A stretch of DNA of 28,330 nucleotides from a virus: IMG/VR virus record IMGVR_UViG_3300011113_000536, positions 1 to 28,330 of that record, one strand, 5' to 3'. The notes under the pieces were generated by a model, which did no database searches, was not told where the DNA came from, and saw only the letters and a program-made list of their open reading frames with translations. A program made the position numbers and the translations under genes. Positions 4,135 through 23,244 of the stretch are shown here, one piece after another. Position 1 is the first letter of the stretch. Each line of letters starts with the position of its first letter.

Positions 4135-4140
4135 CCTCCT
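4135..4140 (-). promoter_or_regulatory. Strong SD (AGGAGG) that decides the dUTPase start
   Basis: On the minus strand AGGAGG overlaps the gp45 stop codon (CTAGGAGG) and stands four bases before GTG at 4130. It favours the GTG over the upstream ATG at 4163 and suggests stop-start coupling with the clamp gene. Confidence 0.7.
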
Positions 4141-4849
4141 AGTTTTGTAACATTACTAACCAATATGTTGATTCAAAATCAGCTCCGGAAAATTCAATAC
4201 GAGATAATCCGTCAGGTGATACATGTAATTTACCAGAATCGCCTCTGTTTGCAACAAGTACTTCTTTTAATTTATCTGCTGAGAAACAAACCGGATCCAT
4301 ATCTGCACCTGGTGTATTTCCTACTTCAAATGTAATGTTATCTGCATTAACCGTTGAATAATTGATAATAAATTTAATTACGCCACCTTTAACTTGTACT
4401 GCAAAATTTTTAGCATCAGGTAATGCATTCTTTGCTTTGATAAACTTGCTAACAAATTCTTCGTTAACAGGAATTTCAATAACATAATCAGGCTCTGCAT
4501 TGATTGTTGGAACTGCTGGGATAACTGTTGTATCAGCTAACATAAATGTTGCTTTAGTGCTACCCTCTGCAATTTCCATTGCATAATTCTTACCTGCTGC
4601 ATCTTTTACTATAATATTGATGTTTTCACCTAATGCACCTAGCATTTTGTTTAATGCTCCGGTATGATTGATACCTAATTCGCCTTTCATGAAAGGTGTT
4701 GTTTTCCAATTGATTTTTCCTACAATTGTTTGATCTACATCGATCAATTCACAATTAACACCAGTTTCATTTTCTTTTAATTTAACCGCTTCGCAGTTTC
4801 CTGCTAAATAATAACGATTAATAAATGATTGTAACTTGCTTTTTTCCAT
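4139..4849 (-). CDS. 45: DNA polymerase sliding clamp (gp45-like)
   Basis: 236 residues, close to T4 gp45 (228). The start MEKSKLQSFINRYYLAG is followed by a long run of alternating beta strands and helices without catalytic motifs, as expected for the trimeric ring that tethers gp43. The middle has the strand-rich segments VNCELIDVDQTIVGKI and VQVKGGVIKFIIN, and it ends in a hydrophobic strand, TYWLVMLQN. The call rests on this pattern and on the adjoining clamp-loader genes. The SD is CAGGATAA. The gene starts 11 bases after the transglycosylase stop. Confidence 0.85.
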   Translation of the reverse strand: MEKSKLQSFINRYYLAGNCEAVKLKENETGVNCELIDVDQTIVGKINWKTTPFMKGELGINHTGALNKMLGALGENINIIVKDAAGKNYAMEIAEGSTKATFMLADTTVIPAVPTINAEPDYVIEIPVNEEFVSKFIKAKNALPDAKNFAVQVKGGVIKFIINYSTVNADNITFEVGNTPGADMDPVCFSADKLKEVLVANRGDSGKLHVSPDGLSRIEFSGADFESTYWLVMLQN

Positions 4850-4860
4850 GTTTATCCTGA

Positions 4861-6120
4861 TTAAAATTTAAAGAATTTGTTAAAGTTTTCTGCATCGGTC
4901 GTAGAAATACTACTGCCACCGAATTTTTTATATGTTTTAATATATTTTTCGTAAATTTGCGGAGCTGCTTCTGGGTCTGCAAACATTTCATGTAATGAAA
5001 GAATCACATCGTATAAGTCTCTAGGAATCATTGTTTCTAATAATTCAACGTGACTATCAACTAGTTGATTTATTTCCTGTGCGGCTCTTACATATAAATG
5101 TGTATTATGAACAACCATCCTAGGCATAGCTTCTTGTGAATATCTATCTAATCCTTCTGGTGTTTTTCCACCTAATAATTCATAGGTAAAGTCTTTACAA
5201 GCCGGACAATGCAACGAACAAGGAACATGTTGAGTTAAATCGATTGGAACTTCACCCGTCTTACCTTGTTTAATATGTGACTTTCTTCGGTATTCTGCAT
5301 TCTTCGGAAAATACAATTCAGAAAAAGATTGAGTCTTGTAATTTGTTGAGTGCAAATATGTTCCGAATACTGGATATTGGCCTGGAGATGATGAATCTGT
5401 TGTAATATAAATTCTATTACCTGTATGTTGATTCATTAACTTTTGTAAGGTTGCTAAAATAAAGAAATCTGATATCTTAGAAATACCTAATAAATGGACA
5501 TATTCTAATCGTTTATTTTCAAACTCTCTATTCTTTAACATCAATGAAACCGCAAACATAAAGTCTACTAACTTCTGCGGGCCTCCAATTGCCCAACCTT
5601 GAAAATCAAAATGCTTAAATTTGTGATACCACCATGTATACTCTTCAGAATTTGATCCTTGCAACATGTTCAAGAATTTTGTCTTACCTGATTGATGTTT
5701 TTCAAACCAAGCAAAGTTATCAAAACTAATATCAGCACATAGAGCAAATTGATTCTTATACTTTGTCTTAGGTGGAATATCTAAATTTGCTGCAACATCA
5801 CTATTAGCTTCTAACCAATGAAAGATTTTTTCTCGTAATTCATTGCTATATGGCAAAGCTCCAGTTGCTATCTGATAACCTCCAGAATCTCCAAATACTA
5901 ATACATCTTTTTCTAAACCCATTTGCTGTCTAAAGTCCATTTTTTTGTAATGATGTCCTGCAGTCACTAGGAAATATGGATGTCTCCAATCTGCCGGATA
6001 TCTTGAATCAAAAAACTTGACAGGGTTACCATCTTCAAACTTCATATCCTTTTTGAAAGCAGATACCATGGAACCTGCGGACAATGATGGAAAGTATATG
6101 AATCTTTTATTTTCGCTCAT
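4861..6120 (-). CDS. dpdA: DpdA-like DNA (7-deaza)guanine transglycosylase, TGT family
   Basis: 419 residues related to tRNA-guanine transglycosylases. FGDSGGYQI carries the general-base Asp (D78), and ITTDSSSPG carries a candidate nucleophile, D242. A zinc site follows: C301, C305 and C308, then HNTH at 338-341. The stretch WAIGGPQKL (about 176-184) matches the substrate-binding Gly-Gly region of TGTs. In phages, DpdA-type members exchange guanine in DNA for a 7-deazaguanine. The same window holds FolE, QueD and QueE, which make that base, so DNA rather than tRNA is the likely substrate. It overlaps the glycosyltransferase gene upstream by 14 bases. The exact base inserted is not readable from sequence. 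Confidence 0.82.
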   Translation of the reverse strand: MSENKRFIYFPSLSAGSMVSAFKKDMKFEDGNPVKFFDSRYPADWRHPYFLVTAGHHYKKMDFRQQMGLEKDVLVFGDSGGYQIATGALPYSNELREKIFHWLEANSDVAANLDIPPKTKYKNQFALCADISFDNFAWFEKHQSGKTKFLNMLQGSNSEEYTWWYHKFKHFDFQGWAIGGPQKLVDFMFAVSLMLKNREFENKRLEYVHLLGISKISDFFILATLQKLMNQHTGNRIYITTDSSSPGQYPVFGTYLHSTNYKTQSFSELYFPKNAEYRRKSHIKQGKTGEVPIDLTQHVPCSLHCPACKDFTYELLGGKTPEGLDRYSQEAMPRMVVHNTHLYVRAAQEINQLVDSHVELLETMIPRDLYDVILSLHEMFADPEAAPQIYEKYIKTYKKFGGSSISTTDAENFNKFFKF

Positions 6121-7141
6121 CTTTTCTATATCCTTTTAAATAATTGATTAATTGTTTTGCTGAAAAAAAGTTATCATGTAATTTTGAAACTAAATGTGCA
6201 ACTTGTTCTGATAAATCTTGTTTTTCGTATTCTAATATTGCCTTAGCTGCATCTGCTACAGAATCAGCACGTTTAAACATTGGTGTATACATTTCTGTAT
6301 ATGATAATCGATTTGGAACTAACGGGCATGCACCTGCACACGCTGCTTCATACATTGAAATACCTAAAGTTTCTTGATCTGCAAATGAAACTGCAAAGCG
6401 TGCACGTTGAAGTAATTCATGATATTCTGTTTTGCTTAAATTCATTTCCATTGCAACGCAAAATTGATAATGTTGCAAATCTGGATGCTTTGCTAAACGC
6501 TGAAATAAATCTAAACGCTTTTCCGGTGCAATACGATGTGGAAATACTATTATATTTTCTTTCTTTGCCCACATTTTAGGTGCAATCATATCTTTTGTAT
6601 ATTCCATGGGCCAGCCCGTTCTATCAAAGGTTGAATTAAAATATATTGGATATGTTTTACTCATTAAATTAAAATGTGCTGCAGTTGCTAACCAATTATG
6701 GTCAAATGCACCAATAAAGGCTTGCTCAGCGTGTCTAATCCATGGTTTATCTCCAACGAGACGACCTAAAAAGTCATTTGGGTCATATGAACCCGCGTGC
6801 CAAAGTCCGTGCGTTACAACGGGAATATTTAGGAGTTCACTCATGTATTTAACATTGATAATACCAGGATGCCAAGCATCGGTGAATATGATATGATCTC
6901 CTGCCTTAATATCACCACGCGTAAACAATTCTGCTAAACGATGCGTTTGTGTAGCCTTATACATATTAGTGCCACCAAAATTCAAAAAGGCACCTGGTGT
7001 TACTGCTTCTGGAATATCTAAATCACCTTCGATAACTTCTACATCAAAGCCATTGTCTCTAAGCAATTGCGGCACGTGCCATTTCCATTCGCAAGTATAA
7101 CGCGTTGGAACTGATTCTAAATCTACTAAAAATATTTTCAT
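6107..7141 (-). CDS. GT-B (GT4-like) glycosyltransferase
   Basis: 344 residues with a two-Rossmann GT-B layout. The N-terminal strand is MKIFLVDLES; a linker leads to the second domain with NIIVFPHRIAPEKRLDLF, the usual nucleotide-sugar half. The E-X7-E motif is seen in QETLGISMYEAACAG. The acceptor and sugar are unknown. It overlaps the dpdA-like gene downstream and follows a PTPS-fold gene, so it may decorate the modified DNA base, as T4 glucosyltransferases do for hydroxymethylcytosine; that is inference. An ATG at 7165 would add eight residues, but MKIFLV at 7141 is the natural domain start, one base after the previous stop. Confidence 0.8.
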   Translation of the reverse strand: MKIFLVDLESVPTRYTCEWKWHVPQLLRDNGFDVEVIEGDLDIPEAVTPGAFLNFGGTNMYKATQTHRLAELFTRGDIKAGDHIIFTDAWHPGIINVKYMSELLNIPVVTHGLWHAGSYDPNDFLGRLVGDKPWIRHAEQAFIGAFDHNWLATAAHFNLMSKTYPIYFNSTFDRTGWPMEYTKDMIAPKMWAKKENIIVFPHRIAPEKRLDLFQRLAKHPDLQHYQFCVAMEMNLSKTEYHELLQRARFAVSFADQETLGISMYEAACAGACPLVPNRLSYTEMYTPMFKRADSVADAAKAILEYEKQDLSEQVAHLVSKLHDNFFSAKQLINYLKGYRKDERK

Positions 7142-7142
7142 A

Positions 7143-7493
7143 CTATCTTTCAATGATTGCACCATTTTCCCAATCTTCGTAAACTTCTACTTTATATAAA
7201 CTAGGAAATGATTCTAATAACCATTCTCCAATCATTTCACAAGACATTGACCCAAATTCTAATACATTAGTTTCGGTACCGGTAAATCCGATTCGCAGAG
7301 CTTTTTGAATCTTACGATTTAACAAAATAAACTCTTCATCTCTATCAGTATGTGTTACCGTTGCATAACAACGGAATCCAAACATATGACGATGTCTATC
7401 TGATAAGAATGCTACTTCTGGAAAAACTTCTTTAGCATCAGGCCAATTATGAAATCCTTCAATACTAAATGTTACTACTACACTATACTTCAT
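7143..7493 (-). CDS. PTPS/QueD-fold (T-fold) protein lacking the catalytic Cys
   Basis: 116 residues. The N-terminal strand MKYSVVVTFSIEGFHNWPDA gives one His, and FLSDRHRHMFGFR gives an HXH pair, matching the three-His zinc site of 6-pyruvoyl/6-carboxytetrahydropterin synthases. The C-terminal SMSCEMIGEWLLESF and VEVYEDWENGA match the family's helix and final strand. The Cys that precedes the HXH in QueD is absent (Leu aligns there), so normal QueD chemistry is doubtful. I recognise this as a conserved phage/actinobacterial-type family of unknown role. The start at 7493 fits the domain edge; 7514 is possible. It overlaps the upstream gene by 11 bases. Confidence 0.6.
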   Translation of the reverse strand: MKYSVVVTFSIEGFHNWPDAKEVFPEVAFLSDRHRHMFGFRCYATVTHTDRDEEFILLNRKIQKALRIGFTGTETNVLEFGSMSCEMIGEWLLESFPSLYKVEVYEDWENGAIIER

Positions 7494-7935
7494 GGCGATC
7501 GAATTTATAATCATCTGGGTTTACTGATTGCATATTATGAACGGTTGTGCAATACAATTTATAATCTCCATAAACTACTTTGATACTATCCGTTTGCTTT
7601 AATAATGCAGCATCTTTGCAATCTAACATTAACAAGATATGCGCTCGAATTCTAATCATCGGCGGAACGTGTTCTAACATACCAGGCGTTACTTCAATTG
7701 AAACAAATTGAGTATCTGATATCATGTTGAAAATGTTTTGCCAATTAAAGTCTTTGCTTTTACTGTCATTAACTAATTGCTCAGTAGCTGGAGAACAAAT
7801 ATAAATGTGTGGCACGGGTTTCATTCGTTCCGTACCATAAACTAATGGAGCGAAATCTGCAATGAAACATGTTTCGATATCCGTAAAGCGTCCTTCAACT
7901 TCTTTACCATACCATATACTTTTGAAACCAATCAT
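7483..7935 (-). CDS. Conserved hypothetical protein, first gene of the dpdA transcription unit
   Basis: 150 residues, not recognised. It appears to be an alpha/beta protein, with strands at VPHIYICSP and FVSIEVTPG and a hydrophobic segment at IRAHILLML that is too short and charged-flanked to be a convincing membrane span. It is the first gene after the strong terminator at 7980-8007 and has its own promoter at 7941-7969. It therefore heads the unit containing the PTPS-fold protein, glycosyltransferase and DpdA-like enzyme, and may serve the same pathway. There is no SD; the predicted transcription start lies within one or two bases of the ATG. Confidence 0.6.
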   Translation of the reverse strand: MIGFKSIWYGKEVEGRFTDIETCFIADFAPLVYGTERMKPVPHIYICSPATEQLVNDSKSKDFNWQNIFNMISDTQFVSIEVTPGMLEHVPPMIRIRAHILLMLDCKDAALLKQTDSIKVVYGDYKLYCTTVHNMQSVNPDDYKFDRHEV

Positions 7936-7940
7936 AACTT

Positions 7941-7969
7941 ATTATATAAATGTTTTTTAATATTTCCAA
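7941..7969 (-). promoter_or_regulatory. Sigma70-like promoter for the dpdA unit
   Basis: On the minus strand TTGGAA (7964-7969), 17 bp, TATAAT (7941-7946, a perfect -10). The box sits five bases before the ATG at 7935, so the transcript would start on or next to the start codon. It lies directly downstream of a terminator, as expected for a unit boundary. Confidence 0.65.
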
Positions 7970-7979
7970 ATCAAACAGT

Positions 7980-8007
7980 AAAAAAGTGCTAACATTTCTG
8001 CTAGCAC
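7980..8007 (-). terminator. Strong intrinsic terminator
   Basis: On the minus strand an 8-bp stem (GTGCTAGC pairing with GTTAGCAC, one G-T pair) with a six-base loop, followed by six Ts. It lies 16 bases after the stop of the 142-aa gene at 8023-8451. It separates the polymerase-side unit from the dpdA/clamp unit. Confidence 0.88.
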
Positions 8008-8022
8008 CTTATACTAATTTTT

Positions 8023-11018: not shown

Positions 11019-11486
11019 TTATTTTTTTAATTTACAATTGTTATTGTGCCATCTAGTTATATTTCCGATATCAGAAATAACATCGCAATATTGGCACTTA
11101 ATTCGTATAGAATTTAAACGAATTTTACTTTGTTTTTGTCTTGTTTCAGTTGAAACGATTTTATTACAATGCGTATGCTTAACTGCTTGACCATGATATT
11201 GTTTTATTCTATGATATTCATGTGATGAAATAATTAGTCCGGTTCGTTTAGTTACGCCATTAATCATTGCCCAAAGTGCATAACGTAATTTATTATTTTC
11301 TGGATAAATTTCACAAAGAAGTTTATGTGCTATGAAATGTTCTCTAGCTGTTAATTCGGCTATATTTTCTTTATTATTAGTTCCGCCCATACATTTAGGA
11401 ACAATATGATGTCGTTCTTTATATTCTGTTAATTTTCTAGTCTTTGATCTCATTATTAATTGATCGTATATTTTTTTGTAATTCAT
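11019..11486 (-). CDS. HNH homing endonuclease (free-standing)
   Basis: 155 residues. The HNH core is HHIVPKCMGGTNNKENIAELTAREHFIAHKLL (residues about 26-57; key HH, N, H), followed by a YALWAM helix. A C-terminal zinc-finger-like segment (IKCQYCDV then WHNNNCKLKK) probably helps bind DNA. It is a close paralogue of the enzyme at 22624-23244, sharing the N-terminus, HNH block and tail, but lacks the NUMOD3-like middle. It lies directly upstream of the polymerase gene, a common site for such elements in T4-like phages. The SD GGAG lies within the overlapping small ORF. Confidence 0.88.
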   Translation of the reverse strand: MNYKKIYDQLIMRSKTRKLTEYKERHHIVPKCMGGTNNKENIAELTAREHFIAHKLLCEIYPENNKLRYALWAMINGVTKRTGLIISSHEYHRIKQYHGQAVKHTHCNKIVSTETRQKQSKIRLNSIRIKCQYCDVISDIGNITRWHNNNCKLKK

Positions 11487-11647: not shown

Positions 11648-12049
11648 TTACTTAGTATTATTGACAATTTCAATTAACTTATCAAGGCATGCAAGTTCTG
11701 TTTCTTCATAGATTGCATAAACATAAATTTCACCCTCTTTATAGTCGGTTATTCTGTGTGGTCTAATCTCATAAATATATTTATTTTTTGTATATTCTTC
11801 AATCCAAGATTTTAGATTATACTTCTCTCTAAACCATCTAAATGCTTGTGAGAATGTTGGCTGTGATGTATATGTTGAACTATTGTAATTGACACCATTG
11901 AATTTTTGTTCATTTGTTCTCAAATCAGAACATCTCATAGGTGTACTGCAATTATCAAATGCAAATAAACAAGGTTCATCAAATCCAAGTTCTTTGAGTT
12001 TCACCGCCAACTCATAAGGTACAAATTCTTTTTCCATTCCTTGATACAT
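11648..12049 (-). CDS. Conserved phage protein of unknown function, 133 aa
   Basis: The segment EFVPYELAVKLKELGFDEPCLFAF, later PTFSQAFRWFREKYNL and a C-terminal CLDKLIEIV helix define a family I recognise from phages and prophages, without known function. No catalytic motif is evident. The ATG at 12049 overlaps the HPRT stop (TAATG) and has SD AAGG eight bases upstream. An internal ATG at 12037 is closer to where homologues often start (MEKEFVPYE), but its possible SD is too close. Confidence 0.7.
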   Translation of the reverse strand: MYQGMEKEFVPYELAVKLKELGFDEPCLFAFDNCSTPMRCSDLRTNEQKFNGVNYNSSTYTSQPTFSQAFRWFREKYNLKSWIEEYTKNKYIYEIRPHRITDYKEGEIYVYAIYEETELACLDKLIEIVNNTK

Positions 12050-12555
12050 TAATTAACCTTATATAAATCTTCTAAATTTCTTCCTACTCCGTTATTGTCT
12101 AATCCATAACCAGCTATCCATTCGTCTCCGATAACAAATCCACAAAAATTAGTTAGATCAACGCCGCCACCTCTACGAGTTAATGTAACAACTTTAACTT
12201 GTGCCGGAATATGACTATTAACCATGAACAATGCTTCTAATATAGTTGTGCCAGTATCGCAAATATCATCTACAATGTACACGTTGCGACCTTTAAGATC
12301 TAGTTCTAAACCTTTAATGATTTCTATACCTCCAGAATTATCTTGACCTTCATATGATTTCATTCTAATAAAGTCTGATTGTACATTGATTGGCATATTT
12401 CTAAGTAAGTCTGTATAAAACATATATGCACCATTGAGTATACAAATCATTACTGGTGGTAATGCATTACCTGTATTTACGTGATCTTCGGCAATACTTA
12501 ATGCCAATTGTTTTACTCTCAATTGGATGTCTTGTTTGTTAATAATAAGTTCCAT
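12049..12555 (-). CDS. hpt: Hypoxanthine(-guanine) phosphoribosyltransferase
   Basis: 168 residues. The PRPP-binding signature IVDDICDTGTT is near residues 95-105. The N-terminal region has ICILNGAYMFYTDLLR (family pattern LKGA..F..DL), and the C-terminus has GDEWIAGYGLD and YRNL-like GRNLEDLY, both typical of HPRT. The enzyme converts hypoxanthine or guanine plus PRPP to IMP or GMP. A possible specific role here is recycling the guanine released when the DpdA-like enzyme exchanges bases in DNA, and feeding the GTP used by FolE; that is inference. It overlaps the membrane-protein gene by 37 bases. Confidence 0.9.
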   Translation of the reverse strand: MELIINKQDIQLRVKQLALSIAEDHVNTGNALPPVMICILNGAYMFYTDLLRNMPINVQSDFIRMKSYEGQDNSGGIEIIKGLELDLKGRNVYIVDDICDTGTTILEALFMVNSHIPAQVKVVTLTRRGGGVDLTNFCGFVIGDEWIAGYGLDNNGVGRNLEDLYKVN

Positions 12556-13600: not shown

Positions 13601-14389
13601 TTACACGCCTCTTTTAGTATCATATGCAATAATATGATCCCTGCCTGTCATGTTATAACCATATTCGGCACACATTTCAAATACGATGGGATACATTTTG
13701 ATTAATTCTTCTCGGGTATCGCCTGCCGGCATAATGTATGTTTTTGATCTAGGAATATTCAATTTAACCCGGAATTCTTCAATTTCTTGTAAATTATATT
13801 CCGTACCATCCCATACTGGTTTGTAATGATAATCTGTATGAAACTCAATCATTTGTTTGATTGCTTCATAATTTAATCTAAATTTATTATGTTGCGTAAC
13901 CATTTTTTCATCCGTGATCGTCCCTTGCGGCGTAGGAGTACCCAGAACGGGAACGCTATTGCTAAACTTAGGACTAAGACTAATAAGCCCAATAGGATAA
14001 TCAGTCGCAATAAAATGTGAGCCTTCAGTTTCAATAGTGATAAGAATGCTTCTTTCATGTGCAAAGTGTGTTAATTCATTTACCAAAGCAGGATGCATTG
14101 TTGGAGCACCCCCTGTTAACATCATTTCTTTAATATGCGGATTTTCATCGTATATTTTTATGATGTCATTAAATGTAAATGTACCTTTTTCTGGATGTAT
14201 TGATGTGTACCAAGAATCACACCAACCACCTTCTCCAAAATAGCATCGGTGAGTGCAACCTGTAGTTCTAACTGCAATAGTAGGTCTGCCGAATCGAGAA
14301 CCTTCTGATTGCACGCATCTATACAATTCTACTATGGGTAATGTTTTGTTGTAATCTGTTATTCTTTTAGAAAGGGAGGTCATCGTCAT
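13601..14389 (-). CDS. queE: 7-carboxy-7-deazaguanine synthase (QueE), radical SAM
   Basis: 262 residues. QueE converts 6-carboxytetrahydropterin to 7-carboxy-7-deazaguanine. The substrate loop RCVQSEGSRFGRPT (about 24-37) is followed by the cluster cysteines C45, C49 and C57, then the SAM-binding MMLTGGAPTMHP and ETEGSHF. The cysteine spacing is CX3CX7C rather than the usual CX3CX2C, with FGEGG inserted before WCDS; I have seen similar insertions in phage QueE. The C-terminal PVWDG and YIMPAGDT segments match family strands. It overlaps the upstream gene by 23 bases. Starts at 14389 and 14383 are equally possible. Together with FolE and QueD it supplies the base for the DpdA-like enzyme. Confidence 0.9.
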   Translation of the reverse strand: MTMTSLSKRITDYNKTLPIVELYRCVQSEGSRFGRPTIAVRTTGCTHRCYFGEGGWCDSWYTSIHPEKGTFTFNDIIKIYDENPHIKEMMLTGGAPTMHPALVNELTHFAHERSILITIETEGSHFIATDYPIGLISLSPKFSNSVPVLGTPTPQGTITDEKMVTQHNKFRLNYEAIKQMIEFHTDYHYKPVWDGTEYNLQEIEEFRVKLNIPRSKTYIMPAGDTREELIKMYPIVFEMCAEYGYNMTGRDHIIAYDTKRGV

Positions 14390-14732
14390 CTTCTAATTTA
14401 GTTGGTACATTTAGTTGTTTAATCACAGCGTCAAATTTAGCTTCTAGATCTTGCAATCTTTGCTGCAATTTAAGTAATTCAGAACGTCTTACTAATGGCG
14501 TTCGATCTAATTCAGGATTTGTATTATTAGCAAAATATGAATCTAAGAATGATATCGGATATATTTGTACTTGAGTGTATTCTGGACGTTGTGCTTCTTT
14601 AGGTAGCATTCTCCATTTGATATCAACGCCTCGTTTTACAGCTTCTGCCGTTACTTCTCGTCCAATATTTGTACCACCAGAGCCTTTACCTAAATATTCA
14701 AAAAGTGATACATAAGTTTCATTATTCTCCAT
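14367..14732 (-). CDS. Conserved phage protein with an SSB-like acidic C-terminal tip
   Basis: 121 residues. The N-terminal half (YVSLFEYLGKGSGG, then IGREVTAEAV) and YPISFLDSYF belong to a phage family I recognise without known function. A Leu/Gln coiled-coil stretch follows (ELLKLQQRLQDLEAKF). The last residues are LEDDDDLPF, almost exactly the DDDIPF tip that bacterial SSB uses to recruit partner proteins. There is no evident OB fold. Binding to SSB partners or to phage replication proteins is inference. The start overlaps queD by 11 bases and the end overlaps queE by 23. Confidence 0.7.
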   Translation of the reverse strand: MENNETYVSLFEYLGKGSGGTNIGREVTAEAVKRGVDIKWRMLPKEAQRPEYTQVQIYPISFLDSYFANNTNPELDRTPLVRRSELLKLQQRLQDLEAKFDAVIKQLNVPTKLEDDDDLPF

Positions 14733-15192
14733 AACTTGCTGAGTTTCTTTCGTGTTCGTATACTTCTACTTTTATTGCTTTGACTCTACCTTCGGTTTCT
14801 TTTTCAAGGAATTCATTAATTACGCTGTATAAGTATTCTGCAAATCTTTCGCAACCTACTGCCGGTAAAACTCTTAATTGAATGATACCATCTGTATTCA
14901 TTTGTATAAATTGCTCTAAGTATGGATCATCTATTGCTACAATTGTAGTATGATCTAACAAATAAGCAAAATACTCTTTTGGAGCCATACCTTCAATTTT
15001 CGTTTTTGCTCTTTTCATTCCACCGAAATCAAATACCCAATTGCGATGATCTAAATCACCTTCGAACCATACTCGGAATGATACTGCATAACCATGGAGG
15101 AATTTGCAATGCGTGCCATCTGCTCGCCATTGACGGAAACATGCCGAGTAGCCGTCGAATAATTTTGTTGACTTAAATTTTGCCATTTTCAT
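14722..15192 (-). CDS. queD: 6-carboxytetrahydropterin synthase (QueD), phage type
   Basis: 156 residues. QueD turns dihydroneopterin triphosphate, the FolE product, into 6-carboxytetrahydropterin. The family pattern is visible: THCKFLHGYAVSF (the catalytic Cys and following LH), FDFGGMKRAK, LDHTTIV, VGCERFAEYLY and a final VEVYEHERNSASY. Compared with E. coli QueD, the first zinc His aligns with a Cys (YSACF), and the second His of HGH is Tyr, so the zinc site is altered. It still clearly belongs to the PTPS/QueD family. It lies between folE and queE, with translation coupling by overlaps on both sides. The start may be 15192 or 15186. Confidence 0.85.
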   Translation of the reverse strand: MKMAKFKSTKLFDGYSACFRQWRADGTHCKFLHGYAVSFRVWFEGDLDHRNWVFDFGGMKRAKTKIEGMAPKEYFAYLLDHTTIVAIDDPYLEQFIQMNTDGIIQLRVLPAVGCERFAEYLYSVINEFLEKETEGRVKAIKVEVYEHERNSASYGE

Positions 15193-15479: not shown

Positions 15480-16181
15480 TTAATTGTAACCTTTTACGAA
15501 TTGATAAAATTCTGAACGGGCATTACCATCTTCTAAGAATGCTCCGGATAATTTAGCAGTCTTCATTGAAGCACCTCCATGCTTAACACCTCTACATTGC
15601 ACACAATTATGAGTTGCTTCAATCATAACTGCAACACCTTTATTGCGTTCAATAAGCTCATCTATTGCGTGATGAATTGCTACTGTCAATTGTTCTTGAA
15701 TTGCACCTCTTCTACCAAAATGCTCTACAACGCGATTCAATTTACTTAAACCAATAACATTGCTATTGTCGCCTGGAATATATGCAACATGGACGAGTCC
15801 GGAAATGGTTTGATGATGATGGCTACACATTGAAGTTAATGGGATGCCTCCTTCGAATACAATACCATCATAACCGTCACTAGGAAATGCTGTGATATCT
15901 GACATTGGTTCATATCGACCGGCCCATAAATCATTAACATATGCTTTTGCAACTCTGCGTGGAGTATCGGATGAATTTGGATCTGACTCCCATGTTACGC
16001 CTAATGCGGTTAAGAACTGACCGTAATGATATGCTGCTTTGTCAATTATTTCTTGTTTTTCTTCTCGTGTTAAACGAGCATCGGGGCCTTCTAAAGATTG
16101 TTTAACTGCTAATTGCATTGAAACGCCGTTAGCAAATCCAGGGTGCACTAATTCTAAATTTTTTCTTTGTTCTTGTGTCAT
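15480..16181 (-). CDS. folE: GTP cyclohydrolase I (FolE)
   Basis: 233 residues. FolE converts GTP to 7,8-dihydroneopterin triphosphate, the first step of both folate and 7-deazaguanine synthesis. Visible features are SDTPRRVAKAY, MCSHHHQTISG (zinc C119 and catalytic/zinc His 121-123), IGLSKLNRVVEHF, IQEQLTVAIHHAI and ATHNCVQCRGV (second zinc Cys and the substrate-binding CRG). The queD and queE genes downstream indicate that the product goes to a deazaguanine rather than folate. A good promoter at 16201-16228 precedes it, so folE probably heads this unit. Confidence 0.95.
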   Translation of the reverse strand: MTQEQRKNLELVHPGFANGVSMQLAVKQSLEGPDARLTREEKQEIIDKAAYHYGQFLTALGVTWESDPNSSDTPRRVAKAYVNDLWAGRYEPMSDITAFPSDGYDGIVFEGGIPLTSMCSHHHQTISGLVHVAYIPGDNSNVIGLSKLNRVVEHFGRRGAIQEQLTVAIHHAIDELIERNKGVAVMIEATHNCVQCRGVKHGGASMKTAKLSGAFLEDGNARSEFYQFVKGYN

Positions 16182-17235: not shown

Positions 17236-17454
17236 TTAATAAATATCATTTAATGAGGTATTACCTTTTTCGTGTTTAGGTTCATATGGACAATGTCGAC
17301 AACCGTTACCGCAACAGCTTCCTCTTCTTTTATGATATGATTCAGTCATTACTCGACGACCATCCTCCCAGTAAAAGTCCGTTGGAAGGAGCTTGTTTCC
17401 AAACTCCCTCACAAAGGCTTGTTGTATCCAATCTTTTGATGCTGGCTGTATCAT
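17236..17454 (-). CDS. Cys-rich DUF5522-like protein
   Basis: 72 residues. The central YHKRRGSCCGNGCRHCPY is the signature of the small DUF5522-type family (pattern T-x-x-YH-x-x-RGxCCGxGCRHCP), known from bacteria and eukaryotes without a settled function. Four to five cysteines suggest a bound metal or Fe-S cluster. The N-terminus (WIQQAFVREFGNKLLPTDFYWEDG) is helical then strand. The start overlaps the GIY-YIG stop (TAATG), so it is probably translated with the upstream endonuclease gene. Confidence 0.65.
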   Translation of the reverse strand: MIQPASKDWIQQAFVREFGNKLLPTDFYWEDGRRVMTESYHKRRGSCCGNGCRHCPYEPKHEKGNTSLNDIY

Positions 17455-18212
17455 TATTTTATCTCTTTTGTTATTTTTATTTTATATCCTTCATATGATA
17501 ATTTACGTTTTCTAGATGATTTTATAATAATATCTGTTTGTCCATTTCGTATTTCATCATTATTTTTCGAACATAATGGATATTCAGTTTTTAAATATCC
17601 TATACAATCATATCGTTTAACGAAATTCATATCAGTATCATATAAATATGCATACCCTTTCCATGTACTATTATTTGAACCTTTAGAATTTTTACTCCTT
17701 ATGGCACGTGCTTCTGGCGTATTACATATTTCTTTCATTATTCGTTTACGTTTAGCAATTATATCTGGGTTTTGATTTGCTCGATTGACGCCATCTTTAA
17801 CTTTTTTAGAATATTCTTCTGTTTGCCATAATCGTTTAGTATTTTCACTATGTTTTGTTCGATTGATATTATTCCAATATGATGATGCTTTTGATAATAG
17901 TTTTCTTGTTCTTTCTTGATCTTTTGCACAACGTAAACTAAACGTGTCGCCGCCTTCGCCTCCGATTGTTAAATTGTAACCTATAGATCTACATGTAGAA
18001 TTATAATATGCAATCCAAAATTTTTCTCGGTCACACATATGTTGTTCAGATTCGCAATATTCTATTATTACTTTTTCAAAATTTTCTCTACCATACTTAT
18101 TTATCGAACTATTTAAACGTTTACCAGAGCCTAAATATTTAGGATTATCGTGTTTATCTTTTCCGATATAAATTTTTCCGGTGATCAAATTAGTTGTTTT
18201 ATAAATAATCAT
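17454..18212 (-). CDS. GIY-YIG homing endonuclease
   Basis: 252 residues from the ATG at 18212. The GIY-YIG motif is split over MIIYKTTNLITGKIYIGK at the N-terminus (usual GIYxxxN...YIG form), with the family's second block KYLGSGKRLNSSINKYGRENF and the catalytic Glu in EKFWIAYYN. The linker has NUMOD3-like repeats (TKRLWQTEEYSKK, ANQNPDIIAKRK) and a C-terminal DNA-binding segment. A longer frame to 18269 has no SD and runs through the hairpin, so I reject it. The gene sits just after the ribonucleotide reductase. Its SD lies in the 3' arm of a strong hairpin, which should restrict its translation. Confidence 0.88.
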   Translation of the reverse strand: MIIYKTTNLITGKIYIGKDKHDNPKYLGSGKRLNSSINKYGRENFEKVIIEYCESEQHMCDREKFWIAYYNSTCRSIGYNLTIGGEGGDTFSLRCAKDQERTRKLLSKASSYWNNINRTKHSENTKRLWQTEEYSKKVKDGVNRANQNPDIIAKRKRIMKEICNTPEARAIRSKNSKGSNNSTWKGYAYLYDTDMNFVKRYDCIGYLKTEYPLCSKNNDEIRNGQTDIIIKSSRKRKLSYEGYKIKITKEIK

Positions 18213-18245
18213 AAAAAGCTCCTTATATAAATAAATATAAGGAGC
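18213..18245 (-). terminator. Terminator hairpin that also buries the SD of the GIY-YIG gene
   Basis: On the minus strand an 11-bp perfect stem, GCTCCTTATAT pairing with ATATAAGGAGC, has a TTATTT loop and is followed at once by five Ts and the ATG at 18212. The AAGGAG SD of the endonuclease is part of the 3' arm. The structure can stop transcription after the reductase gene and also block ribosome entry on read-through RNA. Confidence 0.85.
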
Positions 18246-18253
18246 CTGTGAAA

Positions 18254-20110
18254 TTAAATAATAGTACAATTGCCGCCTGCACAGGCTAGTTCTCCGGATA
18301 AATCTGTATTATCATCTAATTCAATAACTTTACTCAAATCTATATCAGTTAACGATTTAAGCATTTCTTCATATGTTTCTCGAGTAATGTCTTCGAAGGG
18401 CGCTTGGGTGTAGGTGCCTCCGTCATATGGAAGTACTGATAACCCATTATAATGATCTCTGTTGTTCCACATCCATTCTCCTGCCAATTCCCATTCATCT
18501 GCTTTGAGTGAAACCGTTGCAGAAACATTGTGTGTATTGTTTCCACTTCTGTGTCCTGGTTTAACCCATTCTAAATGTACTTTCTTGATACGCTCTAATA
18601 ATGCAAATGGAGATTCTGTTCTCAAAATAGCTCCTTCTGGTGCTTTTTGTGGAATAGAAATAACTGCAGTATCGTGTGGTCGGAAATATTCATCTTCAAT
18701 AAGCTCAGGATGATTGATTGCCAAGTATGAATAAATTGCTTCATTTTTTCCAACTCGGATTCTTCTTACATAGTAATCATTGTGCCAAGCGTGAATACCT
18801 GATGATGTTCCTAATGTTAAAGATGTTGTTCCTGCAGGTTTAACTGTGGTTGTACGTGCTGATTTATTAATTCCAATCAATTCTGCTACTCGAGCATTTG
18901 TTTCTTTAACTGCCTTTGCAGCTGCTTTCATATCATAACCCAATACTGTACCAGAACCTATACCTGTCATTGATACCCCAATTAACGCATCCTTTTCAGT
19001 TGTTCGTTTCCAAACCGGGCGAAGATAATGAAAGTCAGTATAACCTGCTTGAAGTGTTCCGATAAATGCTGCTGCTCGAACGCGTTCTTCCAAATCTTCT
19101 TGAGATTTAATATCTGATGCATTTACTTCACATAAGTTACAGAATTGGAAAGGACGTAGTGCAATTTCGCAACATGGGTTAGTTCCCCAATCTTTATCAT
19201 TTGTTAGGTAAATTCCCGGTTCACCTGCTCCTGACAATTCAACACGTTTCCAAAGATCCATAAAGAATTCTTTTGTTAATTTATGACGCATTAGTGTTGC
19301 TGAATTATTAGCTCTACCTCGTTGTGGATTTGTTTCCCACCAGTTACCTGATTTACAAGCAATCATTTCTTCATCATCTGCTGAAAATAAAGATATAAGT
19401 GCTGCACGTCTAATTCCTCCTGCTAATACTGCATCTGCAACGTGACAAACCATATCATGCACTTCAATTGCTGATAATTTGTCGCCATCTTCTTTTGCAT
19501 CTAAAATACCAGCTAATTTAATCAAACATTCTTTAAGTGGTTGTGGGCCAGGAGCTTTTCCTCCTGATGTAACTAATCTAGCACCTTTAGGACGAATATC
19601 AGAAAAATCAAATACGAATGTTGAACCGCCTTCAAAATAAGATTTAACTAGAGCTTTAACTGCATCTGCCCAACCTTCAATTGAATCTGCGATAAGGAAT
19701 CTACGTGTTTTTTTAGGATTTGGTTTACGAATTTCTGGTAATTTTTCTACATGATGCGTTTGAACTGAATATCCAACACCTGTACCACCTAATAATAAAA
19801 ACATTGCTTCACCAAATGCTCTATAATCATCAATTGGTAAATAAGCACAGTTATAAATTCGGTTAGGGGAGATTTCAATTGGCTTTCCTCCAAATTGTAA
19901 ACTGCGCATCGAAGGCAATACTTTTTTATCATAAACATACTGATATGCATTTTCAATTTCCGGGTATAACATCGGGTACTTTTTCTGATGCATTTCTTTG
20001 TTTCTTGTAACTAATTCTTCCCATGTCTCTCGTCGATTGAGCTCAGGGATGTACTTGGCATATTTCATGTATACCGTAATCTCGCTCAAAATTTGATTTG
20101 AAATTTCCAT
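18254..20110 (-). CDS. nrdJ: Class II (adenosylcobalamin-dependent) ribonucleotide reductase
   Basis: 618 residues, resembling the monomeric class II enzyme of Lactobacillus (RTPR). C88 in NCAYLP and C324 in FQFCNL form the substrate-reducing pair. NPCCEI (311-316) holds the thiyl-radical Cys C313 with N311 and E315. The C-terminal CX4C (C610, C615) relays electrons from thioredoxin, which this phage also encodes. No NrdB-type radical subunit or NrdG activase is needed, but the host must supply B12. PAGTTSL and the long GGTGVGYS loop fit the alpha/beta barrel. The SD AAAAGGAT precedes the ATG. It provides dNTPs for replication; T4 instead uses NrdAB and NrdDG. Confidence 0.92.
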   Translation of the reverse strand: MEISNQILSEITVYMKYAKYIPELNRRETWEELVTRNKEMHQKKYPMLYPEIENAYQYVYDKKVLPSMRSLQFGGKPIEISPNRIYNCAYLPIDDYRAFGEAMFLLLGGTGVGYSVQTHHVEKLPEIRKPNPKKTRRFLIADSIEGWADAVKALVKSYFEGGSTFVFDFSDIRPKGARLVTSGGKAPGPQPLKECLIKLAGILDAKEDGDKLSAIEVHDMVCHVADAVLAGGIRRAALISLFSADDEEMIACKSGNWWETNPQRGRANNSATLMRHKLTKEFFMDLWKRVELSGAGEPGIYLTNDKDWGTNPCCEIALRPFQFCNLCEVNASDIKSQEDLEERVRAAAFIGTLQAGYTDFHYLRPVWKRTTEKDALIGVSMTGIGSGTVLGYDMKAAAKAVKETNARVAELIGINKSARTTTVKPAGTTSLTLGTSSGIHAWHNDYYVRRIRVGKNEAIYSYLAINHPELIEDEYFRPHDTAVISIPQKAPEGAILRTESPFALLERIKKVHLEWVKPGHRSGNNTHNVSATVSLKADEWELAGEWMWNNRDHYNGLSVLPYDGGTYTQAPFEDITRETYEEMLKSLTDIDLSKVIELDDNTDLSGELACAGGNCTII

Positions 20111-21596: not shown

Positions 21597-22649
21597 TTAT
21601 TTTTGTGTTTGTTTTGCGAAAGCATTTAACGATAACCAAGTATTGTTTAACCAATCCGGTAAGTTCTTCATTATTGCCCACATCTTATCTTCATAAAAAA
21701 GACGTTGAAATTCTGCACGATTTAATTCCGATACAGGCTGTTCCATGATACCACGTATTTTGCTAGCTGTTTGTGCAGGTATATCTAACAATTTGATATT
21801 CATGAGTTGATAATTTTGTTCAATGATTCTAGAATTATCTAGTATCTTTTGATATGATTTTGATTCTGTTAAAGAGTCTTTGCTTTTTTGAAATAATGCA
21901 TCAACCGTTACCTCTTGTTCATTAGCTAGTTCCGGAACTAATTTTAAAATAGTTTTAGGTCCTATACCATTAACGCCAGGAATGTTATCAGATGCATCTC
22001 CTGTAAATGTACGATAGATAACCATGTTTGCTGGATGAACGCCAAATTCATCTATAACTGCATTTACATCATACATTTTCTTTTTAATAGGAGACCATAC
22101 TTGAATTCGATTATCTACAAGTTGATAAAAATCTCTATCCGTAGAAACTATAGTTATCTTTTTACATTCCGTTTCATACATTTGAGCAATATATGCAATT
22201 GCATCATCTGCTTCAATACCATCCATGGCCATAAATGTAACAGGCAAATTATCTAAATAAGAAACTAATCTGCTGAACTGATGTCGCATTGACTCTTGTT
22301 CATCTTCAATTGAAGAATCGTGATGATCGTGACGTCGCAACTTTGTCTTGTTGGCTCGATTAGCTTTGTAATCTCCATATATCTTTTTGCGACGAGCAGA
22401 TCCACCTCTTCCATCAAATACGATAATTAATCTGCTTGGTTTGAAGTCTCTAACAATTTTACCTATAGAATATAAAAATCCGGTAATGCCACCGATGTGA
22501 TCTCCGTCTTCATTGTATGCAGGTGTTGCTCCGAACGCCCTGATAAATGTATTTAAACCGTCACAAACCATAATATGATCATTTGGGTTTGTTGGAGTTA
22601 AACTACGTTCTCGTTGTAATTCTTTAAAAAGTTTTTGATATTTGTTCAT
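21597..22649 (-). CDS. 5'-3' exonuclease/flap endonuclease (FEN, T4 RNase H-like)
   Basis: 350 residues. The PIN-like core has D30 (MVCDGLN), FDGRGGSARR with D79, KKIYGDYKANR (helical arch), GIEADDAIAY (E146, D148, D149) and STDRDFYQL (D171, D173). The helix-3-turn-helix GDASDNIPGVNGIGPKT (217-233) follows. Together these bind two metals and remove RNA primers or flaps, the job of T4 RNase H. The first 24 residues are an extra basic helix before the domain. The start overlaps the upstream HNH gene by 26 bases and lacks a clear SD, which may reflect insertion of that endonuclege element at the gene's 5' edge. Confidence 0.9.
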   Translation of the reverse strand: MNKYQKLFKELQRERSLTPTNPNDHIMVCDGLNTFIRAFGATPAYNEDGDHIGGITGFLYSIGKIVRDFKPSRLIIVFDGRGGSARRKKIYGDYKANRANKTKLRRHDHHDSSIEDEQESMRHQFSRLVSYLDNLPVTFMAMDGIEADDAIAYIAQMYETECKKITIVSTDRDFYQLVDNRIQVWSPIKKKMYDVNAVIDEFGVHPANMVIYRTFTGDASDNIPGVNGIGPKTILKLVPELANEQEVTVDALFQKSKDSLTESKSYQKILDNSRIIEQNYQLMNIKLLDIPAQTASKIRGIMEQPVSELNRAEFQRLFYEDKMWAIMKNLPDWLNNTWLSLNAFAKQTQK

Positions 22650-23244
22650 TTAGTTTACATTTTGCAAAATGCCAACGTTTCATTACATTATTTCCGCCAG
22701 TTTTATTACATATGGGGCATGTAATTAAATTACGTTTTTTTCCACGTTGTCCATCTGATATTTTCTTTCGATCTTCAATTGATCTTGTAGTGCCTTTCCA
22801 TAATGCACTTAATTTTTGTTTTGTTTTATCTGAATGTTTTATTGGAGTTCTTGTTTTTCTAGTTTTTGCAGCTATTCGCAGTTTTTGTTTATGTTCTTCG
22901 GATAGTTTTTGACCTTTTTGTCGAATACTAGATATTTCACTAAATAACATTCTTACTCGTTCATATTCTCTATTTGAGACTCGATATTCTCGTTTATATT
23001 TAGAATTTGAAATGTTTCTAGACATCATCCAATAAGCATAAATTAACTTCGGTTCATTGGGATATATTTCACAAAGAAGCTTATGTATAATAAAATGTTC
23101 TCGGGCCGTTAATTTAACTAAATTAGTTTTTTCATTGTTTCCACCTAAACACCTAGGAATAACATGATGCTGTTCATAATAGCCTTGCAACTTTCGATTG
23201 CGAGCTCTATCAATTATAGCATCATGTATTCTTTGGTAATTCAT
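22624..23244 (-). CDS. HNH homing endonuclease with NUMOD3-like middle
   Basis: 206 residues. The HNH core is HHVIPRCLGGNNEKTNLVKLTAREHFIIHKLL (about 26-57). The middle has NUMOD3-like short repeats (KLSEEHKQKLRIAAK, HSDKTKQKLSALWKG). The end is a zinc-finger-like ITCPICNKTGG plus RWHFAKCKL. It shares the N-terminus, HNH block and tail with the enzyme at 11019-11486, so the two are paralogues at different sites. It lies between uvsX and the FEN gene with SD GAAGGAT taken from the uvsX 3' end. It is a free-standing homing element rather than an intron, since neighbouring reading frames look complete. Confidence 0.88.
   Translation of the reverse strand: MNYQRIHDAIIDRARNRKLQGYYEQHHVIPRCLGGNNEKTNLVKLTAREHFIIHKLLCEIYPNEPKLIYAYWMMSRNISNSKYKREYRVSNREYERVRMLFSEISSIRQKGQKLSEEHKQKLRIAAKTRKTRTPIKHSDKTKQKLSALWKGTTRSIEDRKKISDGQRGKKRNLITCPICNKTGGNNVMKRWHFAKCKLNEQISKTF

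Follow-up and report, generated by a model that had tools for sequence, protein, structure and literature searches.

A recurrent phage gene cassette that may place a sugar-bearing 7-deazaguanine in DNA

The window analysed here is a complete 28,330-base contig from IMG/VR (IMGVR_UViG_3300011113_000536) and is part of a bigger phage genome. Between a DNA polymerase gene and a clamp-like gene it carries four contiguous minus-strand genes, encoding a protein of unassigned function (U150), a QueD paralogue (PTPS2), a glycosyltransferase (GT) and a large guanine transglycosylase resembling DpdA. With modest confidence, this cassette is considered to make a sugar-bearing base in phage DNA, derived from 7-carboxy-7-deazaguanine (CDG). 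FolE, QueD and QueE, all encoded in the window, would produce CDG and, without QueC, the pathway would stop short of preQ0. PTPS2, which keeps the zinc site of QueD, would bind CDG and either convert or present it, DpdA would put the product into DNA in exchange for guanine, and GT, in many phages alongside U150, would move a sugar from an activated donor onto an atom of that base. A slight preference is given to addition of the sugar after base insertion. The first-pass annotation of this DNA had proposed that the cassette may glycosylate a deazaguanine in DNA; the gene linkage behind that idea proves to be real and recurrent, and the evidence on QueC now points to a CDG-derived base.

Close spacing of GT and PTPS2 is seen in five named lineages of phages that infect different hosts: Sinorhizobium phage Phosso, Acidovorax phage ACP17, the Pseudomonas PA5oct group, Synechococcus phage BUCT-ZZ01 and Xanthomonas phage X1. 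Other deazaguanine genes are always close by, and in Phosso a DpdA relative lies at another place in the genome. Among distant metagenomic PTPS2 loci, 27 of 40 carry GT, in every case (27/27) within 2.5 kb of PTPS2. Since gene orders differ, this linkage is not simply that of one inherited block. U150 family members also neighbour PTPS2, GT and DpdA in distant phages. The neighbourhood search that had been suggested as a check thus finds all four genes linked in unrelated phages, against the possibility that they would fail to co-occur elsewhere. The gene set is widespread, and cultured phages are among its carriers.

PTPS2 phages fall into two kinds, one with GT and a large DpdA, the other with a small transglycosylase-like protein and no GT. 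The supporting counts, like those for U150 below, cover 60 loci from IMG/VR and from metagenome-assembled genomes (MAGs), the named phages (L082-L093) being assessed separately. GT accompanies a large DpdA in 37 of the 43 GT-positive loci; the small protein, present in 14 of the 17 GT-less loci, never occurs together with GT. The association between GT and transglycosylase type gives a Fisher value of 2.6e-10 and, once the loci are collapsed into 60% clusters because they are related, p 0.034. A GT of this family is missing from the whole records of seven named PTPS2 phages, Cellulophaga phage phiST among them. The small proteins of the GT-less loci (L087:12813-13592 and 19 relatives), about 260-300 residues long in most cases, bear DNSAFE, HFLG and DSS motifs, appear transglycosylase-like by eye and are possibly the published DpdA3.

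The precursor of the base is indicated by the missing QueC. In whole-record searches QueC exceeded its family cut-off in one of 37 PTPS2-carrying viral records, that of the GT-less Vibrio phage D479. Two further PTPS2 records, one of them phage X1, gave weak sub-threshold matches, and none of the GT-bearing viral records searched has QueC above the cut-off. Although the window itself is a fragment, QueC is missing too from contigs of its phage group that measure 145 and 160 kb. Four QueC phages used as controls gave strong QueC matches and contain neither PTPS2 nor this GT. The lack of a convincing QueC in GT phages places the branch point at CDG rather than preQ0, and the finding of QueC phages without PTPS2 and PTPS2 phages without QueC suggests that PTPS2 marks a route leaving CDG without passing through preQ0. 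From the gene content, the base in GT phages is probably not derived from preQ0. Decoration of a preQ0-based nucleoside had been considered as a candidate and was dropped because QueC is missing.

PTPS2, initially described as a PTPS-fold or T-fold protein, matches phrog_17812 (E 7e-25) and shows QueD-type homology in a profile comparison (E 6.3e-6, prob 85), whilst comparison with six other profiles gave nothing significant. H22, H41, H43, R58, E61, S91, E93 and E113 are invariant in its alignment, so that the zinc-ligand histidines (H22, H41, H43) and the C-terminal Glu are retained. A conserved Cys between H22 and H41, as in the QueD catalytic site, is absent from two PTPS2 alignments (A2, A7), and the protein is therefore regarded as a second QueD paralogue and not classed as QueD. 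Retention of the zinc ligands without the Cys suggests that PTPS2 probably binds a pterin or deazaguanine and performs a reaction different from that of QueD; it may decarboxylate or activate CDG. PTPS2 is also found in phages without GT.

GT is probably an active sugar transferase of the GT4 retaining type, for which a deazaguanine would be the acceptor. Its match to PF00534 (27.2 bits) lies just over the cut-off of 26.4. An AlphaFold model of high confidence (pLDDT 91.6), compared with solved structures, has a GT-B fold and resembles GT4-type enzymes with Z up to 26.8, sucrose-phosphate synthase, BshA and MshA being among the top matches. In a comparison with predicted structures of viral proteins, the most notable match is the ACP17 homologue (TM 0.90). 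The window protein has an EX7E motif (E265-X7-E273) as well as the donor-site residues R211 and K216. Across 40 relatives R211 and E273 are invariant and K216 is kept in at least 90%; in the BUCT-ZZ01 homologue Asp replaces E265. It is this conservation of donor-site residues that argues for activity. The T4 glucosyltransferases are not among the listed structural matches, though a relation is still possible. Isoelectric point was considered as a sign of DNA binding and set aside as uninformative, since the GT median of 5.8 is close to the 5.9 of the phage DNA polymerase. The alignment of GT relatives (A3) is too divergent for seeding a collection scan. A second GT-B glycosyltransferase gene is present in the cassettes of BUCT-ZZ01 (L085:5004-6347) and a metagenomic contig (L134:3102-4331), and could mean that two sugars are added. 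In Xanthomonas phage PhiXhv-15 (L094:7753-10987) the genes next to a distant GT relative bear the annotations glucosamine-6-phosphate synthase and N-acetylglucosaminyl deacetylase, and PTPS2 was not seen in the 20 kb examined.

Several points weigh against a sugar-bearing CDG derivative. The loci are related rather than independent, which weakens the statistics. The closest folds to GT use small molecules, not DNA, as acceptors, and GT4 enzymes have many kinds of acceptor. Were PTPS2 only to decarboxylate CDG, the resulting 7-deazaguanine would offer no obvious group at C7 for ordinary O-glycosylation. A host QueC could still convert CDG made by the phage.

The structural matches of GT also bear on an unlikely alternative, in which PTPS2 yields 7-deazaguanine or a similar base that DpdA inserts without any sugar, and GT makes a glycosylated pterin or other small molecule out of the same pool. 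Tetrahydrobiopterin glucosyltransferase, a cyanobacterial precedent, falls within the first 50 matches (5zer at rank 26; 5zes with Z 21.4), and PTPS2 phages without GT exist. That enzyme is, however, just one of many GT4 enzymes with similar scores; it has the GT4 fold in common with GT and acts on a pterin, but identity over the fold is about 12-14% and it has no transglycosylase context. A pterin glycoside would leave the coupling of GT to the large transglycosylase unexplained, and the cluster usually includes QueE. The same coupling can be turned to a variant of the favoured reading that differs in timing and is considered quite improbable: the free base would be glycosylated first, and DpdA would insert the finished sugar-bearing base. 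A tie between GT and one class of transglycosylase would be expected if that class must take a bulky base, and the nearest GT4 folds have small acceptors; T-even phages, on the other hand, glucosylate after replication (PMC13216743).

The product of the large DpdA-like gene is, on sequence criteria, a member of the guanine transglycosylase superfamily (TGT/DpdA) with the catalytic residue set, and is predicted to exchange guanine in DNA. It has no Pfam match, comes no closer than E 0.014 to an NCBIfam tRNA transglycosylase model and lies above the cut-off for no tRNA transglycosylase family. A profile of 27 diverse relatives, compared with the PDB, matched transglycosylases in 51 of 53 cases, with tRNA-guanine transglycosylases at best E 3.9e-5 and the DNA-guanine transglycosylase 7ui4 at E 2.3e-4. 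D78, S79, G80, G81, Q83, D114, H209, L211, G212 and D242 are invariant in these 27 sequences; we take the DSGGxQ motif (D78-Q83), the second Asp (D114) and the nucleophilic Asp (D242) to be the superfamily catalytic positions of the bacterial enzymes.

That this profile matches tRNA enzymes as well as a DNA enzyme is compatible with action on tRNA, where the phage would make a glycosylated queuosine-like nucleoside. Both transglycosylase action and sugar-bearing deazaguanines are established for tRNA, and the mannosyl- and galactosyl-queuosine of animal tRNA do carry a sugar on an inserted 7-deazaguanine (PMC8654956, PMC12518689). The queuosine system is eukaryotic and attaches the sugar to the cyclopentene of queuosine, genes for the synthesis of which are not evident in these phages. 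The failure of the window protein to reach the tRNA family cut-offs, the location of the unit among replication genes and the fact that phage DpdA products known so far are in DNA (PMC6884629) argue for a DNA target, so that a tRNA target appears highly improbable. Glycosylation of virion proteins or host surface glycans, raised at the outset as the alternative, is very unlikely: surface-acting GT4 enzymes do occur in phages and the PhiXhv-15 relative adjoins amino-sugar genes, but an incidental dpdA neighbourhood fits poorly with GT–PTPS2 adjacency across gene orders and hosts, the co-occurrence of GT with large DpdA and the recurrent linkage of both to U150.

A CDG-derived, sugar-bearing base would share elements with known systems. 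Phages 9g, CAjan and nt-1 modify their DNA with 7-deazaguanines through FolE, QueD, QueE, QueC and DpdA (PMC6884629). The cassette shares FolE, QueD and QueE with them, and its transglycosylase too belongs to the DpdA superfamily, but it has no QueC and adds PTPS2, GT and U150. T-even phages use alpha- and beta-glucosyltransferases on 5-hydroxymethylcytosine in DNA (PMC13216743). The parallel, if the favoured interpretation is right, would be a phage-encoded glycosyltransferase serving DNA camouflage, whereas the base, the transglycosylation route and the GT4-type enzyme all differ.

The CDG branch itself has a counterpart in phages that lack QueC and contain carboxy- or plain 7-deazaguanine, reportedly described by Cui et al. 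in 2023 together with DpdA3 and a CDG decarboxylase, DpdL. Cellulophaga phage phiST, which belongs to this comparison, carries PTPS2, but its record has no GT and a small transglycosylase-like gene replaces the large DpdA. PTPS2 may be DpdL; if so, GT would meet a base lacking the carboxyl group, to which a sugar would have to be joined by an unusual linkage. The 7-deazaguanines described from phages in the open-licence literature, which does not take in Cui et al. 2023 or a 2024 review, are sugar-free; no glycosylated 7-deazaguanine in phage DNA was found there, and novelty is unproven. A sugar-bearing one, if true, would unite two major ways of camouflaging DNA, base replacement by transglycosylation and base glycosylation. 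The gene set also offers roles for several 'hypothetical' genes beside QueC-less FolE/QueD/QueE clusters.

U150, noted at first simply as an unknown 150-residue protein, still has no assigned function and can now be placed in a wide family that in these data is confined to GT-bearing loci. The family numbers 118 open reading frames (ORFs) after iterated profile searching. Direct tblastn of U150 found nothing in named phages, its relatives emerging only through iterated profiles via distant loci; relatives of 165-190 residues adjoin PTPS2 in such loci and in ACP17. Of the 43 loci with GT, 18 have U150, against 0 of the 17 that lack GT (p 0.001, loci counted as independent). The AlphaFold model (pLDDT 81.6) has no confident fold match, the best being QueE (5th5, Z 5.2), below the trustworthy level. 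A QGEG-like start and this structural match raised the possibility of a degenerate QueE. In profile comparison QueE came top of nine profiles with E 0.073, which is not significant against the control profiles, and the likeness is kept as a lead only. The radical-SAM Cys triplet is conserved neither in the U150 alignment (A4) nor in the expanded family.

The positions of the features discussed are given in Table 1. The listed window genes all lie on the minus strand and comprise a T4-type replication set besides FolE, QueD and QueE. The description of the unit as four genes overlapping or one base apart is confirmed in ORF coordinates and strand: the junctions overlap by 14-32 nt if the first ATG is used, and an internal ATG of GT, at residue 9, gives a start one base past the end of PTPS2. 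Family searches with the clamp-like gene gave no match, and comparing the region with phage records at the nucleotide level likewise found none. In the phage group to which the window belongs the order polymerase, U150, PTPS2, GT, DpdA, clamp is maintained, the exceptions being loci without U150 or with inserted genes.

Table 1. Coordinates of the cassette, its flanking elements and the deazaguanine-related genes in the window
Feature	Position	Strand	Remarks
U150	7483-7935	minus	150 aa; first in unit; family without assigned function
PTPS2	7143-7514	minus	123 aa; QueD paralogue
GT	6107-7165	minus	352 aa; GT4-type retaining glycosyltransferase
DpdA-like guanine transglycosylase, large type	4861-6120	minus	419 aa
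Clamp-like gene	4139-4849		Assigned by position and by relatives that bear a clamp annotation or match its profile
Terminator-like hairpin	7983-8010	minus	Assigned to upstream gene; 12 pairs, -15.5 kcal/mol
Promoter-like TTGGAA-17-TATAAT	7941-7969	minus	Ends 5 nt ahead of U150 ATG
QueE, CDG synthase	13601-14389	minus	phrog_2076, E 1.3e-46
QueD, carboxy-tetrahydropterin synthase	14722-15192	minus	phrog_2389, E 2.7e-38
FolE, GTP cyclohydrolase I	15480-16181	minus	phrog_2197, E 1.5e-61
Phosphoribosyltransferase	12049-12555	minus	PF00156, E 2.6e-19

The two transcription signals that had been said to open the unit fared differently. The terminator-like hairpin exists and is the strongest of five in 15 kb, but that total matches shuffled sequence (5.8 +/- 2.3); among 17 relatives with upstream DNA examined the same hairpin recurs in L023 only, and it is therefore not part of the conserved unit. 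Promoter-like sites are no commoner in the AT-rich window than in shuffles (70 found versus 82.7 expected), yet TTGGA...TATAWT stands directly before the U150 ATG in nearly all of the relatives' upstream regions examined, with the TTGGA half overlapping the end of the polymerase gene in most. As the -10 element ends 5 nt before this ATG, any transcript would be leaderless. A similar arrangement lies ahead of three other window genes. The four minus-strand starts (1624, 7935, 21561 and 28283) have no visible ribosome-binding site and share a TTNGAA-type box together with a TATAWT whose end is 5-7 nt upstream of the ATG, an arrangement seen at 4 of 40 window genes against 1.9% of all ATGs. This pattern suggests a class of leaderless phage transcripts.

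A cellular version of the cassette, in the order GT, PTPS2, DpdA and QueD, occurs at four loci on Magnetospirillum chromosomes (L185, L186, L187 and L191), two of them from one assembly and one from the isolate M. aberrantis SpK. Upstream, the two examined closely (for example L187:1090-14334) have a CoiA-like nuclease, typed in L187 as PF06054, and a HEPN protein of the LA2681 type; on the downstream side is a phage-type integrase, and the locus thus has the look of a genomic island. Among 385 sampled genomes of the same class there was one more, weaker DpdA match besides the query genome. PADLOC returned no match when given the four genes of the window unit or six from the island, which is a candidate modification or restriction system. 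It is attractive to consider, if only tentatively, that GT–PTPS2–DpdA, with or without U150, is a mobile module of phages of many hosts which yields a new class of DNA base, a sugar-bearing 7-deazaguanine derived from CDG, and that the Magnetospirillum version could serve restriction-modification.

The phosphoribosyltransferase gene of the window also has counterparts near deazaguanine genes in BUCT-ZZ01 and PAC2 (L085:3087-3548 and L084:10342-10776); its product might recycle guanine that base exchange sets free and so pull the reaction forward. Three homing-endonuclease-like ORFs (11019-11486, 17454-18269 and 22624-23244) adjoin the polymerase, ribonucleotide reductase and exonuclease genes. 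Among bacterial assemblies, the unit's nearest relative is on a 3,017-base contig of a Crocinitomicaceae MAG (L173), where PTPS2 is 92% identical, a weak hint of a Bacteroidota host.

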